Position numbers and translations under genes: made by a program
Shown: positions 11,926 to 39,974 of the stretch, one piece after another
Layout: each line of letters begins with the position of its first letter
How positions within the stretch are numbered: position 1 is the stretch's first letter
The notes under the pieces: generated by a model
Database searches by the model: none
What the model was told of the DNA's origin: nothing
What the model saw: the letters and a program-made list of their open reading frames with translations, nothing else
Source: Thermoleophilia bacterium
GTDB taxonomy: Bacteria; Actinomycetota; Thermoleophilia; Miltoncostaeales; Miltoncostaeaceae
Length of the DNA stretch: 48,670 nucleotides
Assembly (NCBI GenBank): GCA_028285405.1
Contig: JANQPH010000049.1
Coordinates: 1-48,670 of the forward strand
Direction: 5' to 3'

Positions 11926-14178
11926 TTACGGTGTGGGAGGCGGTGGCTCCGCTGGAGGGGGCTCCGGTGGAGGCGGCTCTGCCGGCGGAGGCTCGGCTGG
12001 CGGCGGTGCCGCTGGCGGCGGCTCTGGCACGGGCGGTGGTGCCGGCTCGGCGGGCGCGGGCGCCGGCTCCGGCACGGGTGCCGGCGCTGGCTCCGGGATC
12101 GGCGCGGGGTCGGGAGCGGGAGCGGGAGCCGGCGCCGGAGTGGGCTCGTTGGGCTCCTGGGTCACCGTCTCCTCGGTCGTGCTCTCCTCGGTGGTGCTCT
12201 CCTCTTCCTCTTCCTCCGGACTCGCCGGCGAGCGGTCGGCGGTGATCTGCGACTGGAGGGTGCTCGAGAACGAGCGCCACTCGACGGGCTCCTTGACCTC
12301 GGGCCAGTCCGGCCGACCGTCGCGGTCCGCGACCCACCGCATGTAGCGACCCCAGATCTGGGCGGGGAAGGTTCCCCCGGCGACCGACATGCCGTGGACG
12401 CTGTACATCGAGATCCGCTCGTCCGGATAGCCGACCCACGTCACCGTTGTGTACTTGGGCGTGTACCCGGCGAACCAGGCGTCCGAGAACTCGTCCGTGG
12501 TCCCGGTCTTACCCGCCGCGGGGGCGCCGATGTTCGCGGCCGTCCCGGTGCCGCCCTGGATGTTGGCCTCGAGGATGTTGGTGACCTCGGCGGCGACGCC
12601 GTCGCTGAAGACGCGCGAGCGCTCCGGGGTGAACTTCTCCACCGTGCCGTCCGGGCGGACGATGCGCGAGATCGCGAGCGGCGCGACGCGGAAGCCGCCG
12701 TTCGACAGCGGCGAGTAGGCCGTCGCCATGTCGAGCGGCGTGACCTCACCGGAGCCCAGTCCGACCGACGGGAAGGGCGGCAGGTCGCGCTCGGCGGGGA
12801 TGCCCATCTTGACGGCCGTCTGGACCACGTTCGCCGGGTCCAGGTCCAGCGTCATCTGGGTGTAGACGCTGTTGTCGGACGACAGCGTCGCCTGGCGGAT
12901 CGAGGTCGGGCCCGAGTAGGTGTTCGAGTAGGTGCTGACGTCGATGCGACCCCACCGAGCGTGGTCGAAGTCGAGGCGCCGGGAGTTGTACGCCGTCGTG
13001 TTGGGGTTGATCCCCTCCTCGATCGCACGCGCCAGGACGAAGGTCTTGAAGGTCGAGCCGGGCTGGCGCAGGGCCTGTGCCGCCAGGTTGAACTGGTTGT
13101 TCTGGCCGTACTGCTGGCTCGACGCCATCGCCCTGATGGCGCCGGTGCGCGAGTCCATCGTCACGAGCGCGCCCTCGGGGTCCGAGTCCAGGTAGAGGCT
13201 CTCGTTGATCGTCCGGCGGGCGACGGCCTGCATCTCGGAGTCGATCGTGGTGTAGACCTTGAAGCCGCCGCGCTGGACTTCCTTCTCGCCGTACCGGTCG
13301 ATCAGGACCTGGCGGACGTAGTCGAAGAAGTAGCCGTGGCGGCGGACCTGGTAGGCCTCGCCGCGCTTGAGGCCCAGCCCGGACTTCTTGGCCTTCTCGC
13401 CCTGCTCGGCGGTGATGTACCCCTGGTCGATCATCTCGTCGAGCACGACGTTGCGGCGACTCTTGGCCTCGTCCGGCTGGCTGAACGGGTCATAGGCGCT
13501 CGGCGCCTGGGGCAGTCCGGCGAGAAGGGCGGCCTGGGGAAGGGAGATCTTCGCGGCCGGGCGATCGAAGTAGGTCAGCGACGCGGCCTGGACGCCGACG
13601 GCGTTGCTGCCGAAGAAGACGCTGTTCAGGTACTTGGTGAGGATCGCGTCCTTGTCGAACTCCTTCTCGTACTGGAGCGCGAGGTAGACCTCTTCGATCT
13701 TGCGCGAGAACGTCCGGTCTGCGCCGGGGTCGTAGAGGTTCTTCATCAGCTGCATCGTGATCGTCGACCCGCCCTGCCTGGCCGACGTGTCCTGGACGTT
13801 GCGCACCGCCGAGCCGGCCACCCGGTACCAGTCGACGCCGTCGTGCTCGAAGAAGCGCTTGTCCTCGATGGCGACCGCGGCGTCCTTCAGGTGCTGCGGG
13901 ATGCGATCGCTCGGGACCTCGGTCCGGTTCGTCACCCCGGCGATGTAGCCGAGCAGCGCGCCGTCCTTGTCGAAGATCCGCGTGTTCTGGCCGAGCCGGA
14001 TCTCCTTGACGTCCTGCTCGCGCAGGCTGTCCCCGACCGAGTCGAACGCCAGCGCGCCGCCGACGAGCACGACGGCGAGGATCGCGACGAGCGATCCGAG
14101 GACGGCGCGAAACGCCGTGCTCCGCTGACGGCGTCGCTGCCGCTGGCGGCGCACTCGGCGGCGGCGCTCGAGCCTCAC
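11926..14178 (-). CDS. bifunctional penicillin-binding protein 1A
   Basis: 750 residues. A basic N-terminus and one membrane helix (22-45) anchor it. The GT51 glycosyltransferase domain (about 65-245) has EDKRFFEHDGVD (catalytic Glu 105), GGSTITMQL (136-144), RKIEEVYLAL and the FFGSNAVGVQAAS block. The transpeptidase domain (about 305-620) has S375-T-F-K378, S434-D-N436 and K557-T-G559, all intact. It polymerises and crosslinks peptidoglycan outside the membrane. The last 100 residues are an acidic run (655-670) and then a Pro/Ala/Glu tail. GTG 14178 is preceded by GGAGGG at 6 bases. Paralogues are usual, so ponA is not assigned. Confidence 0.95.
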   Translation of the reverse strand: MRLERRRRVRRQRQRRRQRSTAFRAVLGSLVAILAVVLVGGALAFDSVGDSLREQDVKEIRLGQNTRIFDKDGALLGYIAGVTNRTEVPSDRIPQHLKDAAVAIEDKRFFEHDGVDWYRVAGSAVRNVQDTSARQGGSTITMQLMKNLYDPGADRTFSRKIEEVYLALQYEKEFDKDAILTKYLNSVFFGSNAVGVQAASLTYFDRPAAKISLPQAALLAGLPQAPSAYDPFSQPDEAKSRRNVVLDEMIDQGYITAEQGEKAKKSGLGLKRGEAYQVRRHGYFFDYVRQVLIDRYGEKEVQRGGFKVYTTIDSEMQAVARRTINESLYLDSDPEGALVTMDSRTGAIRAMASSQQYGQNNQFNLAAQALRQPGSTFKTFVLARAIEEGINPNTTAYNSRRLDFDHARWGRIDVSTYSNTYSGPTSIRQATLSSDNSVYTQMTLDLDPANVVQTAVKMGIPAERDLPPFPSVGLGSGEVTPLDMATAYSPLSNGGFRVAPLAISRIVRPDGTVEKFTPERSRVFSDGVAAEVTNILEANIQGGTGTAANIGAPAAGKTGTTDEFSDAWFAGYTPKYTTVTWVGYPDERISMYSVHGMSVAGGTFPAQIWGRYMRWVADRDGRPDWPEVKEPVEWRSFSSTLQSQITADRSPASPEEEEEESTTEESTTEETVTQEPNEPTPAPAPAPAPDPAPIPEPAPAPVPEPAPAPAEPAPPPVPEPPPAAPPPAEPPPAEPPPPEPPPAEPPPPTP
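11929..12147 (-). repeat. low-complexity Pro/Ala/Glu repeat of the PBP1A tail
   Basis: Degenerate direct repeats of the type PPPAEP and PAPAP encode residues about 678-750 of PBP1A. On the plus strand they appear as GGCGGCTC- and GGCGCTGG-like units. It is a wall-spanning or flexible tail, not a mobile repeat; replication slippage and length variation between strains are expected. Confidence 0.85.
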
Positions 14179-20523: not shown

Positions 20524-21870
20524 ATGACACGCAACACCAGACCACTCGGGTTCGGGTTGGTCGTCGCCGGTGTGGGGCTCGCAGTGATGGCGGTGCCGGC
20601 GATGGCGTTCCAAGCGCCCGGGTACGTCGACATCACGACCCAGGGCAACGGAACGGCGACTGGGCCGGCCAACATCATCTACGGCAACCTGCCAGCGGAC
20701 TTCCAGCCGATGCGGGGGAGCGAGGCGTTCCAGGGTCTCGGCGGTCCGTTCGCCGCGGTGGACCAGCTCGACGGGCAGCAGATCAGGGGCGGAGGGCTCT
20801 TCAACGGCAACCTCCAGGTCCAGGCCGGGCCTGGCAAGGACACGTTCACGGTTGCTGGGCAGGGCGGCGGCGAGGTCAACTTCGACGACATCCCTCGCCC
20901 CCCGGCGCCCCGCCCAGCGCCGCCGTTCACACCGCTCGTGCAGCCCACCCTCAACCAGATCGGGGGTCAGCCGGGCCAGGCGACCATCCCGCAGACCCTG
21001 TTCGCGCCTCAGCTCGCGGACAGCGTTCCACCCAACGCGCCCGTCCAGGCCGATCAGAACGCGCTGCGCTTCAGCCACTTCAAGTGCTACCAGGTGGTAC
21101 GTCGCACGAAGTTCAGCCAGAAGCGCGTCGATCTGCACGACCAGTTCAACCGGTATCGGAACGTCCGCGCTGTCCGGGCCCTCGAGGTCTGCAATCCGGT
21201 GCTGAAGCGCCACAACGGGCGGACGACCCAGGTCACCGACACCCGGGAGCACCTCGTCGTCTACCGGGTGAAGGCGAGGCCGGCCCTGCAGTTGCAGCTG
21301 ACGACCCGCAACCAGTTCGGGACCCAGCGCATCGAGAACCGGAACCTCACGGCGCTGCTCGTTCCGTCGCGCAAGCAGCGCGTCGCGGGTCCGGGCAACC
21401 GGCTCAACCGGCGCTCCGACCGGAGGCAGCTCGACCACTTCGCCTGCTATCCGGCCCGGGCCACGGCGGGAAGGCCGGCCGGCCGAGTGATCCTCGCCGA
21501 CCAGTTCGAGCGCAAGGCTCACCGACTCGGGATCCTCAACGGCATCTGCAACCCGACGCAGAAGGTCCACCGGCGCAAGACCACGCCGCTGCGCCACGCG
21601 GACTCGCACCTCGTGTCGATCCAGCTGCGCCAGCAGCGAAGCAGGGTGCGCGGGGTGGTGGTCCGGAACCAGTTCGGGATCCAGGGCTTCGTCACGAGGA
21701 ACGCGACCCGTCTGCTCGTGCCGTCGACCAAGCGCATCTGCACGACGATTGGCGCAGACGTGAACGTTCCGATCGTCGGGTCGCAAGGGCAGCAGATCGA
21801 CCTGCTGAGGAGCTTCTCCTTCCAGCCGTACGGTGGGGACCCGGCCGGGGCATGCCCGACGGTCAGGTGA
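20524..21870 (+). CDS. secreted protein with two copies of a Cys-containing DQF/NQF domain
   Basis: 448 residues. Signal peptide 1-32 (basic start, hydrophobic core, AMA cleavage before Phe-Gln). A Gly/Asn-rich N-terminal region (33-125) and a Pro-rich linker are followed by two tandem domains of about 100 residues (about 180-285 and 303-404). Each has the pattern HFxCY, then DQF, then CNPxxK, then HL, then RNQFG, then LLVPSxK; the two Cys could pair. This resembles DUF7450-type domains, but the name is tentative. ATG 20524 follows GAGGGGG. The role is unknown; extracellular or wall-associated. The next gene is a paralogue. Confidence 0.8.
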   Translation: MTRNTRPLGFGLVVAGVGLAVMAVPAMAFQAPGYVDITTQGNGTATGPANIIYGNLPADFQPMRGSEAFQGLGGPFAAVDQLDGQQIRGGGLFNGNLQVQAGPGKDTFTVAGQGGGEVNFDDIPRPPAPRPAPPFTPLVQPTLNQIGGQPGQATIPQTLFAPQLADSVPPNAPVQADQNALRFSHFKCYQVVRRTKFSQKRVDLHDQFNRYRNVRAVRALEVCNPVLKRHNGRTTQVTDTREHLVVYRVKARPALQLQLTTRNQFGTQRIENRNLTALLVPSRKQRVAGPGNRLNRRSDRRQLDHFACYPARATAGRPAGRVILADQFERKAHRLGILNGICNPTQKVHRRKTTPLRHADSHLVSIQLRQQRSRVRGVVVRNQFGIQGFVTRNATRLLVPSTKRICTTIGADVNVPIVGSQGQQIDLLRSFSFQPYGGDPAGACPTVR

Positions 21871-21880
21871 TCTGATTCAC

Positions 21881-21910
21881 CCGGGTGCGGCGACGTCGCG
21901 CCGCACTCGG
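21881..21910 (+). terminator. hairpin terminator between the two paralogues
   Basis: A 12-bp stem with one G-U pair (inner arms GTGCGGCG at 21885-21892 and CGCCGCAC at 21899-21906, loop ACGTCG) starts 11 bases after the stop of the first secreted-protein gene. No T-run follows. It may also lie in the leader of the second gene. Confidence 0.55.
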
Positions 21911-21951
21911 GGCCATGGGTCCCGCCGACGACAGCTGGGGAAGGGATCGAC

Positions 21952-23352
21952 ATGACGCCTCGCGGGCGGTGGACGCTCACGGTCGTGCTCGCCGCCGGAG
22001 GCGCCCTGGCGCTCGGGGTCGCGCCCGGGAGCGCCGGTCAGTCTCCCGTCGGTCTCGATCTGCGCTTCGAGCAGAACGGCGAGGCGAGCGGTGGCGGCAC
22101 GCTCTTCTTCCAGAACTCGCCGCGACCGGCGACGCAGGGCCTCGCGGACCTCCTCGGCGCCTTCACGTTCAGCGGGAACGTCGACGGTGGCCTGAACGGC
22201 GGTGTCGCCGACGACTTCCGCGCGGGCGGTGAGCTGTTCCTGGTCGGCCCGGACGGCAACCCGGTCTCCATCGAGGCCGGCGACCGGCTGAGGGCGCTCG
22301 GCGACCGGCTCGGCACCCCCGCGGGCAACGACGTGCTGCTCGGGGGAGGCATCGAGGGTGGCGCGGACTTCACCGCGTTTCCGGGTGCCGCTCAGGCCGC
22401 CCGGTCCGCCGCCGGGCAGCGCGCCCAGCAGCTGATCGGCCCTGCGGCCCTCGCCGGCTTCGCCAGGACACGGCTCTCGCCACAGCTGATCGACAGCGTG
22501 CCTCCCAACGGACCGAAGGCCTTCAGGAAGAACGCCCTGCGGTTCAGCCACTTCAAGTGCTACCGGGTCGTGCGGCGGGTCGGGGGATTCCGCGCGCGGA
22601 CCGTCGATCTGGCGGACCAATTCGCCGACTACTCGCGGGTGCGCGTGACCCGTCCGGTCGAGGTGTGCAACCCGGTCGCGAAGCGTCATCTGGGGAGGAC
22701 GTTCCGGATCACGGACTCCCGTCGGCACCTCGTCGCGTTCGCTATCGCGCCCCGGAGCGCGCCCCGGCTCGATCTGACGACGCGGAACCAGTTCTCCACG
22801 CAGCGGGTTCGAAACGGCAGCCTCAATCGACTGCTGGTCCCGTCACGCAAGCGACAGTCGCTCGGGCCACGGAACGCCGTCGGTCGAACGTCGAGCTCGC
22901 GGGTGCTCGACCACCTCGCGTGTTACCCGGCTCGGGTCGACGCGGGCGCGATCGGCGGCGGCCGGGTCGGGCTCACCGACCAGTTCGAGCGCAAGCGCCA
23001 CCGCCTGGCGAGTCAGAGCGGGATCTGCAACCCCGCGGTGATGCGACACCGGGGCACGCGGACCCCGGTCAGGTTTCCCGACTCGCACCTGATCTCGATT
23101 CGTCTCCGGAACGTCGCCAGTCCCGCGCGCGCGGTGACCGTCCGGAATCGGTTCGGGGTCCAGCGCCTGGTCACCGGGAACGCGACCCGGCTGCTCGTGC
23201 CGTCCACCGTGCGCGTGTGCGCGACCTGGGACGCCCGGGTCGACGTGCCGGTGACGACCCTCGCCCGCCAGCAGCTGGACACGCTCCGGACGGTGTCGCT
23301 CACGCCGTACGAGGGCGAGCAACGCGGGGCCTGCCCGACGGTTCTCGACTGA
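21952..23352 (+). CDS. secreted paralogue with two copies of the same DQF/NQF domain
   Basis: 466 residues. Signal peptide 1-29 (MTPRGRWT, Ala/Leu-rich core, SAG cleavage before Gln). The N-terminal 190 residues are Gly/Asn/Leu-rich and differ from the upstream paralogue. Then come two tandem domains (about 194-300 and 318-420) with RFSHFKCY, LADQF, CNPVAKRH, RNQFSTQ and LLVPSRK in the first, and LDHLACYPAR, TDQFERK, CNPAV, RNRFGVQ and LLVPSTV in the second. Both paralogues end in GACPTV. ATG 21952 is preceded by GGGGAAGGGA. It arose by tandem duplication; the function is unknown. Confidence 0.8.
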   Translation: MTPRGRWTLTVVLAAGGALALGVAPGSAGQSPVGLDLRFEQNGEASGGGTLFFQNSPRPATQGLADLLGAFTFSGNVDGGLNGGVADDFRAGGELFLVGPDGNPVSIEAGDRLRALGDRLGTPAGNDVLLGGGIEGGADFTAFPGAAQAARSAAGQRAQQLIGPAALAGFARTRLSPQLIDSVPPNGPKAFRKNALRFSHFKCYRVVRRVGGFRARTVDLADQFADYSRVRVTRPVEVCNPVAKRHLGRTFRITDSRRHLVAFAIAPRSAPRLDLTTRNQFSTQRVRNGSLNRLLVPSRKRQSLGPRNAVGRTSSSRVLDHLACYPARVDAGAIGGGRVGLTDQFERKRHRLASQSGICNPAVMRHRGTRTPVRFPDSHLISIRLRNVASPARAVTVRNRFGVQRLVTGNATRLLVPSTVRVCATWDARVDVPVTTLARQQLDTLRTVSLTPYEGEQRGACPTVLD

Positions 23353-36939: not shown

Positions 36940-38208
36940 TCAGAGCTTCCAGACGCGGCCGTCGACGTCCGGGACGACGTTTCGCAGGTCGACCACGAGG
37001 CTCGAGCGCTCGGCGACCGCCTGCCAGTCGATCCCGTCGTGCGCCGTCACCACGACCACGGCGTCGTAGCCGGCGAGCGCGTCGGGGTCGAAATCGACGC
37101 TCCGAAGGCCCTGGCGCGGCAGCTCGGCCACGTACGGGTCGGAGTACTCCACCGCGGCGCCTTCGCTCTCGAGCAGCGAGATGACGCGCAGTGCCGGGCT
37201 CTCCCGGGTGTCGTTGACGTTCGCCTTGTAGGCGACGCCCATGACGAGGATCCGGCTGCCGTTGAGCGCCTTTCGCTTGCTGTTCAGCGCCCGCATGATC
37301 TTCTCGACGCAGAACTTGGGCATCTGCGAGTTCACCTTGCCGGCGAGCTCGATGAACTCCGTGTGGAAGTCGTACTCGCGCGCCTTCCAGGTCAGATAGA
37401 AGGGGTCGATCGGGATGCAGTGCCCGCCGAGCCCAGGGCCGGGCCGGAACGGCATGAATCCGAACGGCTTGGTCGCCGCGGCGTCGATCACCTCCCACAC
37501 GTCGACGTCCATCCGGTCGCAGAGGACGGCCAGCTCGTTCACGAGCGCGATGTTGACGGCGCGGAAGATGTTCTCGAGCAGCTTGGTCATCTCCGCGACC
37601 TCGGGGCTGGCGACGGGGACGACGGTGTCGACGGCCTCCGAGTAGAGCGCGATCGCTCGCTCGGTGCAGGCCGGCGTCAGCCCGCCGACCACTTTCGGCG
37701 TCGTCTTGGTCGTCCAGTCGGTCCGGCCCGGATCGACCCGCTCGGGCGAGAAGGCGACGTAGAAGTCGCGACCCGCGCGAAGGCCCGAGCGCTCGAGTGC
37801 GGGGGCGAGCTGCTCACGGGTCGTGCCGGGGTAGGTCGTGCTCTCGAGCACGACGAGCTGGCCCGGGCGCAGGCGCTGGGCGAGGCTCTCGGCCCCGCCG
37901 AGCACGGCCGACAGGTCCGGCTCGCGGTGCTCGTTCAGCGGGGTGGGCAGGCAGATCAGGATGGCGTCGAGCCATCGCATCGCGTCCCAGCTCGTGGTGG
38001 CCCGGACGAGCCCGCGCTCGGTCAGCGGGGCGAGGCGCTCCGAGGGGACGTCTTCGATGTAGGAGTCGCCGGCGTTGATCCGCTCGACCTTGGCGGGCAC
38101 GGCATCGAGGCCGAGCACGGGGACCCCGGCCTCGGCGAAGGTCACGGCGAGCGGGAGGCCGACGTACCCGAGCCCCACGACACCGACCTTCGGGGCATCA
38201 GCGGACAA
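36940..38208 (-). CDS. nucleotide-sugar dehydrogenase, UDP-GlcNAc 6-dehydrogenase (WbpA) type
   Basis: 422 residues. NAD-binding VGVVGLGYVGLPLAV, LICLPTPLNEHREPDLS, ESTTYPGTTRE, FSPERVDPGRTD, catalytic Cys in GPGLGGHCIPIDPFYL, and the C-terminal VAYKANVNDTRESP. Oxidises C6 of a UDP-hexose(NAc) in two steps with NAD. The SPERxxPG and GGHCIPIDPFYL blocks match the WbpA/WecC group better than plain UDP-glucose dehydrogenase. TTG 38208 has GGAGG 5 bases upstream. It heads the run WbpA-WbpB-WbpD; the aminotransferase WbpE that acts between them is missing. Confidence 0.9.
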   Translation of the reverse strand: MSADAPKVGVVGLGYVGLPLAVTFAEAGVPVLGLDAVPAKVERINAGDSYIEDVPSERLAPLTERGLVRATTSWDAMRWLDAILICLPTPLNEHREPDLSAVLGGAESLAQRLRPGQLVVLESTTYPGTTREQLAPALERSGLRAGRDFYVAFSPERVDPGRTDWTTKTTPKVVGGLTPACTERAIALYSEAVDTVVPVASPEVAEMTKLLENIFRAVNIALVNELAVLCDRMDVDVWEVIDAAATKPFGFMPFRPGPGLGGHCIPIDPFYLTWKAREYDFHTEFIELAGKVNSQMPKFCVEKIMRALNSKRKALNGSRILVMGVAYKANVNDTRESPALRVISLLESEGAAVEYSDPYVAELPRQGLRSVDFDPDALAGYDAVVVVTAHDGIDWQAVAERSSLVVDLRNVVPDVDGRVWKL

Positions 38209-38889: not shown

Positions 38890-39960
38890 TCAGGCGAGCC
38901 ACTCCGCCAGGGAGCCGGCGATCCGCTCGGCGGAGCGGCCGTCCCCGTAGAGCGGCGGCGGGTCGCCGGCGGGTGGGGGCGTCGCGAGCGCGGCCCGGAG
39001 GCGGTCCGGGTCGAGCCCGACGAGGGCGTTCCATCCTGCCGAGACCGTCTCGACCCACTCGGTCTCCTCGCGAAGGGTGACGCACGGGACCCCGTGGAAG
39101 AGCGCCTCCTTCTGGACGCCGCCCGAGTCGGTGACGACCGCACGCGCGGTCAGGAGCAGCGCGGTGAAGTCCAGGTAGCCGAGGGGCTCGCTCACGAGCA
39201 GTCCGTCGATCCCGGCGATCTCGCCGAGGAGGCCTTCGGCCTCGAGCCGCGCCCGTGTGCGCGGGTGCATCGGGAAGACCGAGGGTCCGTCGATCGCCCC
39301 GATCATCGCGATCAGGTCGACGAGCGCCGCCCGAGTGTCGGTCGTGGCGGCGCGGTGGGCCGTGACGAGCACGTATTCGCCGGGCGTGAGCCCGAGCGCG
39401 TCGGCACCGGGCCGGGAGCGGGCCGCGGGCGCGAACGCGATGCTGGCGTCGTACATCACGTCCCCGACGAGCTCGACGCCGTCCGTGATCCCCTCCGCGC
39501 CCAGGTTCGTGACCGCGGTCGGGGTCGGGCAGTACAGGCGCTGTGACAGGTGGTCGGTGACCACCCGGTTCTGCTCCTCGGGCATCCGCCGGTCGAACGA
39601 GCGGAGCCCCGCCTCGACGTGGGCCAGCGCCACGTCCGACTTGGCGGCTGCGACGGCTGCGGCGAGCGTCGTCGTCGTGTCGCCGTACGCCAGCACCGCG
39701 TCGGGGGACTCGCCGACGAGGATCGGCTCGAGCGCGGCGACGATCGCGGCCGTTTGGCCGGTCGGAGTGCCCGGCCCGACCCCGAGCGCGTGGTCCGGCT
39801 CGGGGATCCCGAGCTCGTCGAAGAACAGGTCGGCGAGCGCCGGGTCGTAGTGCTGGCCGGAGTGGACCAGGACCTCCTCGCCGATGGCGCGGACGGCCCG
39901 CGAGACCGGCGCGGCCTTGACGAACTGGGGGCGGTTTCCGACGACCGAGAGGATCTTCAT
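38890..39960 (-). CDS. UDP-N-acetylglucosamine 2-epimerase family (WecB/WbpI-like)
   Basis: 356 residues, GT-B-like fold. MKILSVVGNRPQFVKAAPVS, SGQHYDPALADLFF, YGDTTTTLAAA, HVEAGLRSFDRRMPEEQNR, VTAHRA, and TDSGGVQKEALFHGVPCVTLREETEW are all family blocks with the acidic residues present. Converts UDP-GlcNAc to UDP-ManNAc, or, next to a WbpA-WbpB-WbpD set, UDP-GlcNAc3NAcA to its manno form as WbpI does. ATG 39960 is chosen because TAGTGT lies 8 bases upstream on the same strand; four extra residues are possible from 39972. Confidence 0.92.
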   Translation of the reverse strand: MKILSVVGNRPQFVKAAPVSRAVRAIGEEVLVHSGQHYDPALADLFFDELGIPEPDHALGVGPGTPTGQTAAIVAALEPILVGESPDAVLAYGDTTTTLAAAVAAAKSDVALAHVEAGLRSFDRRMPEEQNRVVTDHLSQRLYCPTPTAVTNLGAEGITDGVELVGDVMYDASIAFAPAARSRPGADALGLTPGEYVLVTAHRAATTDTRAALVDLIAMIGAIDGPSVFPMHPRTRARLEAEGLLGEIAGIDGLLVSEPLGYLDFTALLLTARAVVTDSGGVQKEALFHGVPCVTLREETEWVETVSAGWNALVGLDPDRLRAALATPPPAGDPPPLYGDGRSAERIAGSLAEWLA

Positions 39961-39968
39961 CCGACCGC

Positions 39969-39974
39969 ACACTA
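39969..39974 (-). promoter_or_regulatory. -10 box of the near-leaderless epimerase transcript
   Basis: TAGTGT on the minus strand, 8 bases before ATG 39960. The upstream in-frame start at 39972 would fall inside this box, so it is disfavoured. Confidence 0.4.

Follow-up and report, generated by a model that had tools for sequence, protein, structure and literature searches.

A tandem pair of DUF7450 genes

On the forward strand of the window, by which we mean the whole 48,670 nt stretch of Thermoleophilia DNA that was analysed, two neighbouring open reading frames encode exported-looking proteins. The sequence-only reading of this DNA had described them as tandem paralogues, and this description was confirmed. 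The following features were assigned, with those marked accordingly being seen by eye.

20524..21870, forward strand: gene A, exported-looking DUF7450 protein, 448 aa (P0001)
20524..20607, forward strand: signal-peptide-like N-terminus of A, ending in AMA before FQAP (by eye)
20608..21018, forward strand: N-terminal region of A, acidic, G/P/A/Q/N-rich, pI 4.3
21070..21375, forward strand: domain 1 of A, half A with the Cys pair C188/C223, half B without a pair
21430..21732, forward strand: domain 2 of A, half A with the Cys pair C308/C342, half B without a pair
21733..21867, forward strand: C-terminal tail of A with the Cys pair C406/C444, pLDDT mostly <50
21952..23352, forward strand: gene B, paralogue of gene A, 466 aa (P0002), 49% identical to A
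21952..22035, forward strand: signal-peptide-like N-terminus of B (by eye)
22036..22491, forward strand: N-terminal region of B, acidic, pI 4.5
22546..22854, forward strand: domain 1 of B, half A with the Cys pair C203/C239, half B without a pair
22894..23214, forward strand: domain 2 of B, half A with the Cys pair C324/C359, half B without a pair
23215..23349, forward strand: C-terminal tail of B with the Cys pair C423/C461

A Shine-Dalgarno-like stretch was seen by eye ahead of each open reading frame (GAGGGGG and GGAAGG), and the signal-peptide-like starts suggest the secretion that had been claimed for both proteins. An export signal is usual among DUF7450 proteins, although Pfam does not require one. 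No C-terminal membrane helix, LPXTG motif or lipobox was seen by eye in either protein. Elsewhere in the window, a class A penicillin-binding protein (Transgly plus Transpeptidase) is encoded at 11929-14178 on the reverse strand.

Both proteins belong to the Pfam family DUF7450 (PF24247), matched in two stretches per protein (E 1.4e-23 and 8.6e-18; 83.8 and 65 bits against a curated cut-off of 27). The sequence-only reading had suggested a profile search, a structure prediction and a survey of domain copy number as checks; the first of these returned DUF7450 as the sole Pfam family at E up to 1, and no characterised enzyme or binding domain. CWB2, GW, SLH and other wall-binding families gave no profile matches in the window proteins (Pfam, E up to 1; NCBIfam), NCBIfam yielded no match of any kind for them, and a sequence search of the PDB with protein A gave none. 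The domain had been called uncharacterised, which is right as to function, whereas a name already existed. Literature searches on DUF7450, on Binatota and DUFs, and on LCP and Thermoleophilia returned nothing on the family; DUF7450 is a repeat of unknown function that is known by name alone.

The N-terminal regions had been taken as strongly different and therefore as indicating different partners. That argument gains no support: the two regions are weakly alike (z 2.6; 12 of 500 shuffles scored equally high), both are acidic, and G, P, A, Q and N make up half or more of each. The broader idea of partners on a shared scaffold survives in kind, in other members of the family. DUF7450 was matched by 75 of the 79 family proteins scanned (the set of 81 described below minus the two of the window), and the partners among the 25 commonest of 54 families included DUF4215 in six proteins, FG-GAP_3 in four and Dicty_CTDC in three, as well as, in one or two proteins each, Exo_endo_phos and families of the Ig-like, cadherin-like, EGF-like and beta-propeller kinds. 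Among the matches listed, the partner names are, in our reading, mostly extracellular or adhesin-like.

A half-domain as the repeat unit

The pattern HFxCY..DQF..CNP / HL..Y..NQFG..VPS is present in the window domains. Its fixed motif order, claimed earlier, was recovered in each of the four window domains, with protein B deviating slightly (HLACY, CNPAVM, NQFS, NRFG and LVPSTV). Profiles of the two halves of the domain, built from 143 and 145 of 148 domain rows, aligned to each other over 44 columns with an hhalign probability of 99.3% (E 1.9e-20), and the controls (five column-shuffled, one reversed) all remained below 1%. This match indicates that the basic repeat unit is a half-domain of ~50 aa, present four times per protein, with two homologous copies in each domain. 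The earlier count of four domain copies in the gene pair was thus correct in assigning two domains to each protein, but at the level of the basic unit the copies number eight.

A family set of 81 non-redundant proteins was obtained with our own profile (E 1e-3) from loci L010 to L098 plus the window; locus ends truncate some of these proteins, and the set still includes close copies. The copy number survey in this set identified the two-domain layout as the commonest arrangement and the norm of the family (58 of the 81 proteins; 18 have one domain and 5 have three to five), with a median interdomain linker of 14 residues. The first domains of A and B share 60% identity, against 37% between domain 1 of A and domain 2 of either protein, which supports the earlier suggestion that the two-domain unit is older than the gene duplication. 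The domain tree agrees, though on branches that are not strongly supported and with four of the six focus rows shown: each window first domain has as its nearest rows its counterparts in the other window protein and in the DUF7450 protein of genome G004, and the same applies to the second domains. The tree path between genes A and B is shorter than that from either of them to the gene of G004, suggesting that the duplication took place within their own lineage. After each other, the nearest rows of the first domains from this class are the second domains of the same proteins and not other first domains; a separate doubling of the domain in this lineage may have occurred, and the domain tree does not resolve a common origin for the first domains.

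Cysteine pairs are gained and lost as units

We counted cysteines in 153 domain rows, taking as informative those with letters at both positions and ignoring relatedness, also in the p-values. In half A, 129 of 145 informative rows contained both cysteines, one a single cysteine and 15 neither; in half B the corresponding numbers were 88, 0 and 56 of 144. No association of the pairs across halves was found among the domain rows. Such joint retention or loss of both cysteines strongly implies disulfides within half-repeats. In the class proteins fetched later (n=7), inspection by eye gave the same picture, with both cysteines in 11 of 11 A halves and, for half B, both in 10, neither in 2 and a single one in 0 of 12; two partial frames of locus L108 contain no complete pair. 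The best tree, built from 148 rows after removal of five gappy ones, has 8 changes for each half-B cysteine and 7 and 6 for those of half A. Strong branch support is limited to one independent pair of half-B changes, and the tree therefore contributes little significance.

The half-B pair was kept in 9 of 57 first domains and in 51 of 54 second domains of two-domain proteins, and the three second domains without it are those of window A, window B and the G004 protein. All four window domains have the half-A pair, and a C-terminal tail with a further pair is common to the window and G004 proteins. The window proteins are therefore a variant in which the last half-repeat lacks its Cys pair and the tail has another. 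The previous description of a Cys-paired domain applies to the first half of each domain and not to the second halves, and it had missed the pair in the tail.

A predicted beta module

Prediction of the A module (aa 160-448, nine rows) gave a mean pLDDT of 75.9 and a pTM of 0.77; ten-residue blocks ranged from 79 to 95 except for the linker (53) and the module end (73), and pLDDT dropped below 50 in the first 21 residues and across most of the tail. A single-domain model (21 rows) reached a pLDDT of 89.8 and a pTM of 0.76. Both models are beta throughout, with three-residue helical turns in the two-domain model only. For the two-domain model, nothing in the PDB matched at E 0.001 (the best hit was Ail, E 0.017, TM 0.12), and in a second structural comparison 27 of 999 chains had a Z of at least 2 and none a Z of 5 (best 3.3, a dirigent protein). 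For the single-domain model, Foldseek found no PDB match at E 0.001 (best 0.49), 0 of 996 chains reached a Z of at least 2, and a comparison with viral models gave nothing significant (best E 0.2). SH3-like and other known wall-binding folds were absent among the matches listed, an absence that excludes nothing. The predicted single domain thus has no significant PDB match, which is not proof of a new fold; a propeller and a barrel are both candidate readings of its fold.

Distribution and gene neighbourhood

In its own genome, DUF7450 occurs solely in genes A and B. It was found in 2 of 61 relatives, own genome counted, in 8 of 399 genomes sampled from the class, those two among them, and in 1 of 396 genomes sampled from the phylum, namely the own genome. 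Genes this rare are not a universal wall component. Scanning named genomes with a DNA pattern yielded 13 loci, of which 12 were used (L025 shares its record prefix with L018), and DUF7450 was present in 9 of the 12 genomes reached in this way, including some titled Deltaproteobacteria, Binatota or Thermoanaerobaculia; among the 12, it was absent from the gammaproteobacterial, Flavobacterium and Dojkabacteria genomes (G434, G435 and G436). One of the carriers, Deltaproteobacteria OFTM125 (G431; loci L059-L078), has 49 DUF7450 matches, a large expansion. Its locus title gives Deltaproteobacteria and the origin table Myxococcota, and 5 of 198 genomes drawn from its phylum, G431 counted, have DUF7450. 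A scan of genome contigs with P0001 confirmed 0 of 46 stretches as relatives, tblastn of plasmids and phages gave no matches, and scans of viral contigs with domains 1 and 2 of A gave no relatives. Five stretches of viral contigs found by DNA pattern were rejected as chance, their translations containing stops throughout.

No conserved gene neighbour was seen by eye in the G004 region and seven regions from the class. Downstream of the G004 DUF7450 gene, a basic (0.107) L,D-transpeptidase (YkuD) is encoded at L010:4334-5377 on the forward strand, which is not the case at the window genes. At L114:4259-5680 (genome G719), a separate exported-looking frame precedes a DUF7450 module, with one match containing an in-frame TAG, and at L112:129-1510 (forward strand) two tandem exported-looking proteins have similar N-terminal stretches, the first without a Pfam match at E 0.001.

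Module charge and envelope type

The G004, window A and window B modules have the highest net charge per residue of all 58 two-domain modules (0.170, 0.164 and 0.149; 0.160, 0.153 and 0.143 on domains only), followed by 0.066 for the next and with a median of 0.008. All ten modules from the class, these three and seven more, are basic, at 0.065 to 0.236 measured across linkers and leaving out the two partial L108 frames (0.028 and 0.106). The 78 modules from outside the class, measured on domains only, have a median of 0.013 and do not exceed 0.103, with at least five at 0.075 to 0.103 and hence overlapping the class range; the p-values of this comparison ignore relatedness. Charge did not track GC content among the 78 outsiders (rho 0.04, p 0.75). 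Thirteen other exported-looking proteins of the class loci lie between -0.094 and 0.107, three of them at 0.067 to 0.107, and the 31 open reading frames of the window have a median of -0.023; both backgrounds are crude calls, some probably in wrong frames. The class modules are extreme in charge, yet they overlap the upper end of other exported-looking proteins.

LCP proteins attach anionic glycopolymers to the wall. The LCP family (PF03816) was present in 8 of 8 DUF7450-bearing genomes of the class and in 0 of 9 outside it, and Omp85 showed the reverse distribution (0 of 8 and 9 of 9). LCP alone is not a mark of monoderms, because among 14 controls it also occurred in Synechococcus, Thermus, Deinobacterium and Thermotoga, and some controls with LCP also have Omp85. 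The combined pattern fits a monoderm class with anionic polymers on its walls and suggests what the ligand may be. Charge and envelope together contrast one lineage with others, which is effectively one comparison and not proof of a ligand.

Possible roles of the DUF7450 module

Family membership, half-repeat duplication, paired gain and loss of cysteines, the beta prediction, and basicity with its lineage contrast were computed here. The explanation that we favour, at somewhat less than an even chance, is that the products of genes A and B are exported surface proteins without enzymatic activity, retained by non-covalent binding to anionic glycopolymers of the wall. The C-terminal half would consist of four ~50-residue beta half-repeats, forming two DUF7450 domains and pinned by disulfides inside the half-repeats; this basic module would retain the protein on the wall polymers, and the acidic low-complexity N-terminal region would point outward. 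If such binding is true, DUF7450 would be a new non-covalent anchoring module in this lineage.

Possible, though we would not lean towards it, is that DUF7450 is a general extracellular scaffold or adhesion module that binds proteins or neutral glycans, or that spaces and stabilises, with charge incidental to lineage. The outside modules are near neutral at the median, yet they keep the same motifs and Cys pairing, so a family-wide role needs no charge, and the Ig-like, cadherin-like, FG-GAP, EGF-like and beta-propeller names among the partners also speak for it. It leaves the positive charge of all ten class modules unexplained, for which GC content offers no account among the outsiders.

The strong positive charge of the window modules would also suit a matrix protein with extracellular DNA or an acidic exopolysaccharide as its target instead of the wall, and a UDP-sugar dehydrogenase and a UDP-GlcNAc 2-epimerase, which fit a uronic-acid-type polysaccharide, are encoded ~14 to 16 kb downstream (36943-38208 and 38893-39972 of the window, both on the reverse strand). 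We consider this unlikely, as these genes are not adjacent to genes A and B and the window proteins have no nucleic-acid-binding Pfam match at E up to 1. More improbable still is an enzymatic role, either direct or as an accessory domain that targets an enzyme: Exo_endo_phos occurs in two near-identical family proteins (L019 and L023) and a metallopeptidase-like HExxH stretch, seen by eye, in two others (L024 and L048), but L024 has no Pfam peptidase match at E 0.001, the window proteins match no catalytic family (Pfam, NCBIfam), and the conserved residues look structural.

A wider reading is possible, though less likely than not: DUF7450 might be a beta module absent from solved structures and made of four pseudo-equivalent half-repeats, in which every half-repeat has a closing disulfide of its own that evolution adds or removes as one unit, and it might serve surface binding across diderm and monoderm bacteria with its charge tuned to the host envelope. 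This work gives the family a defined repeat unit in the half-repeat, a map of its putative disulfides, a confident structure prediction that has no significant PDB match, and a hypothesis on the ligand that can be tested.

Comparison with known systems

The window proteins resemble other DUF7450 proteins in their half-repeat motifs and common two-domain layout. They differ, together with the G004 protein, in having the most basic modules of the 58, in lacking the usual Cys pair in half B of domain 2 and in having the extra tail with a Cys pair. The GW modules of Listeria InlB are repeated basic modules that retain the protein on lipoteichoic acid; the window proteins have no GW profile match (Pfam, E up to 1), and the comparison with the role proposed for DUF7450 would concern the way of working only. 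The CWB2 motifs of Clostridioides difficile wall proteins are tandem motifs through which secreted proteins attach non-covalently to an anionic polymer of the wall (PMC4973711). No CWB2 profile match was obtained at E up to 1 in Pfam, and it is again in its way of working alone that the putative DUF7450 anchor would be like CWB2.
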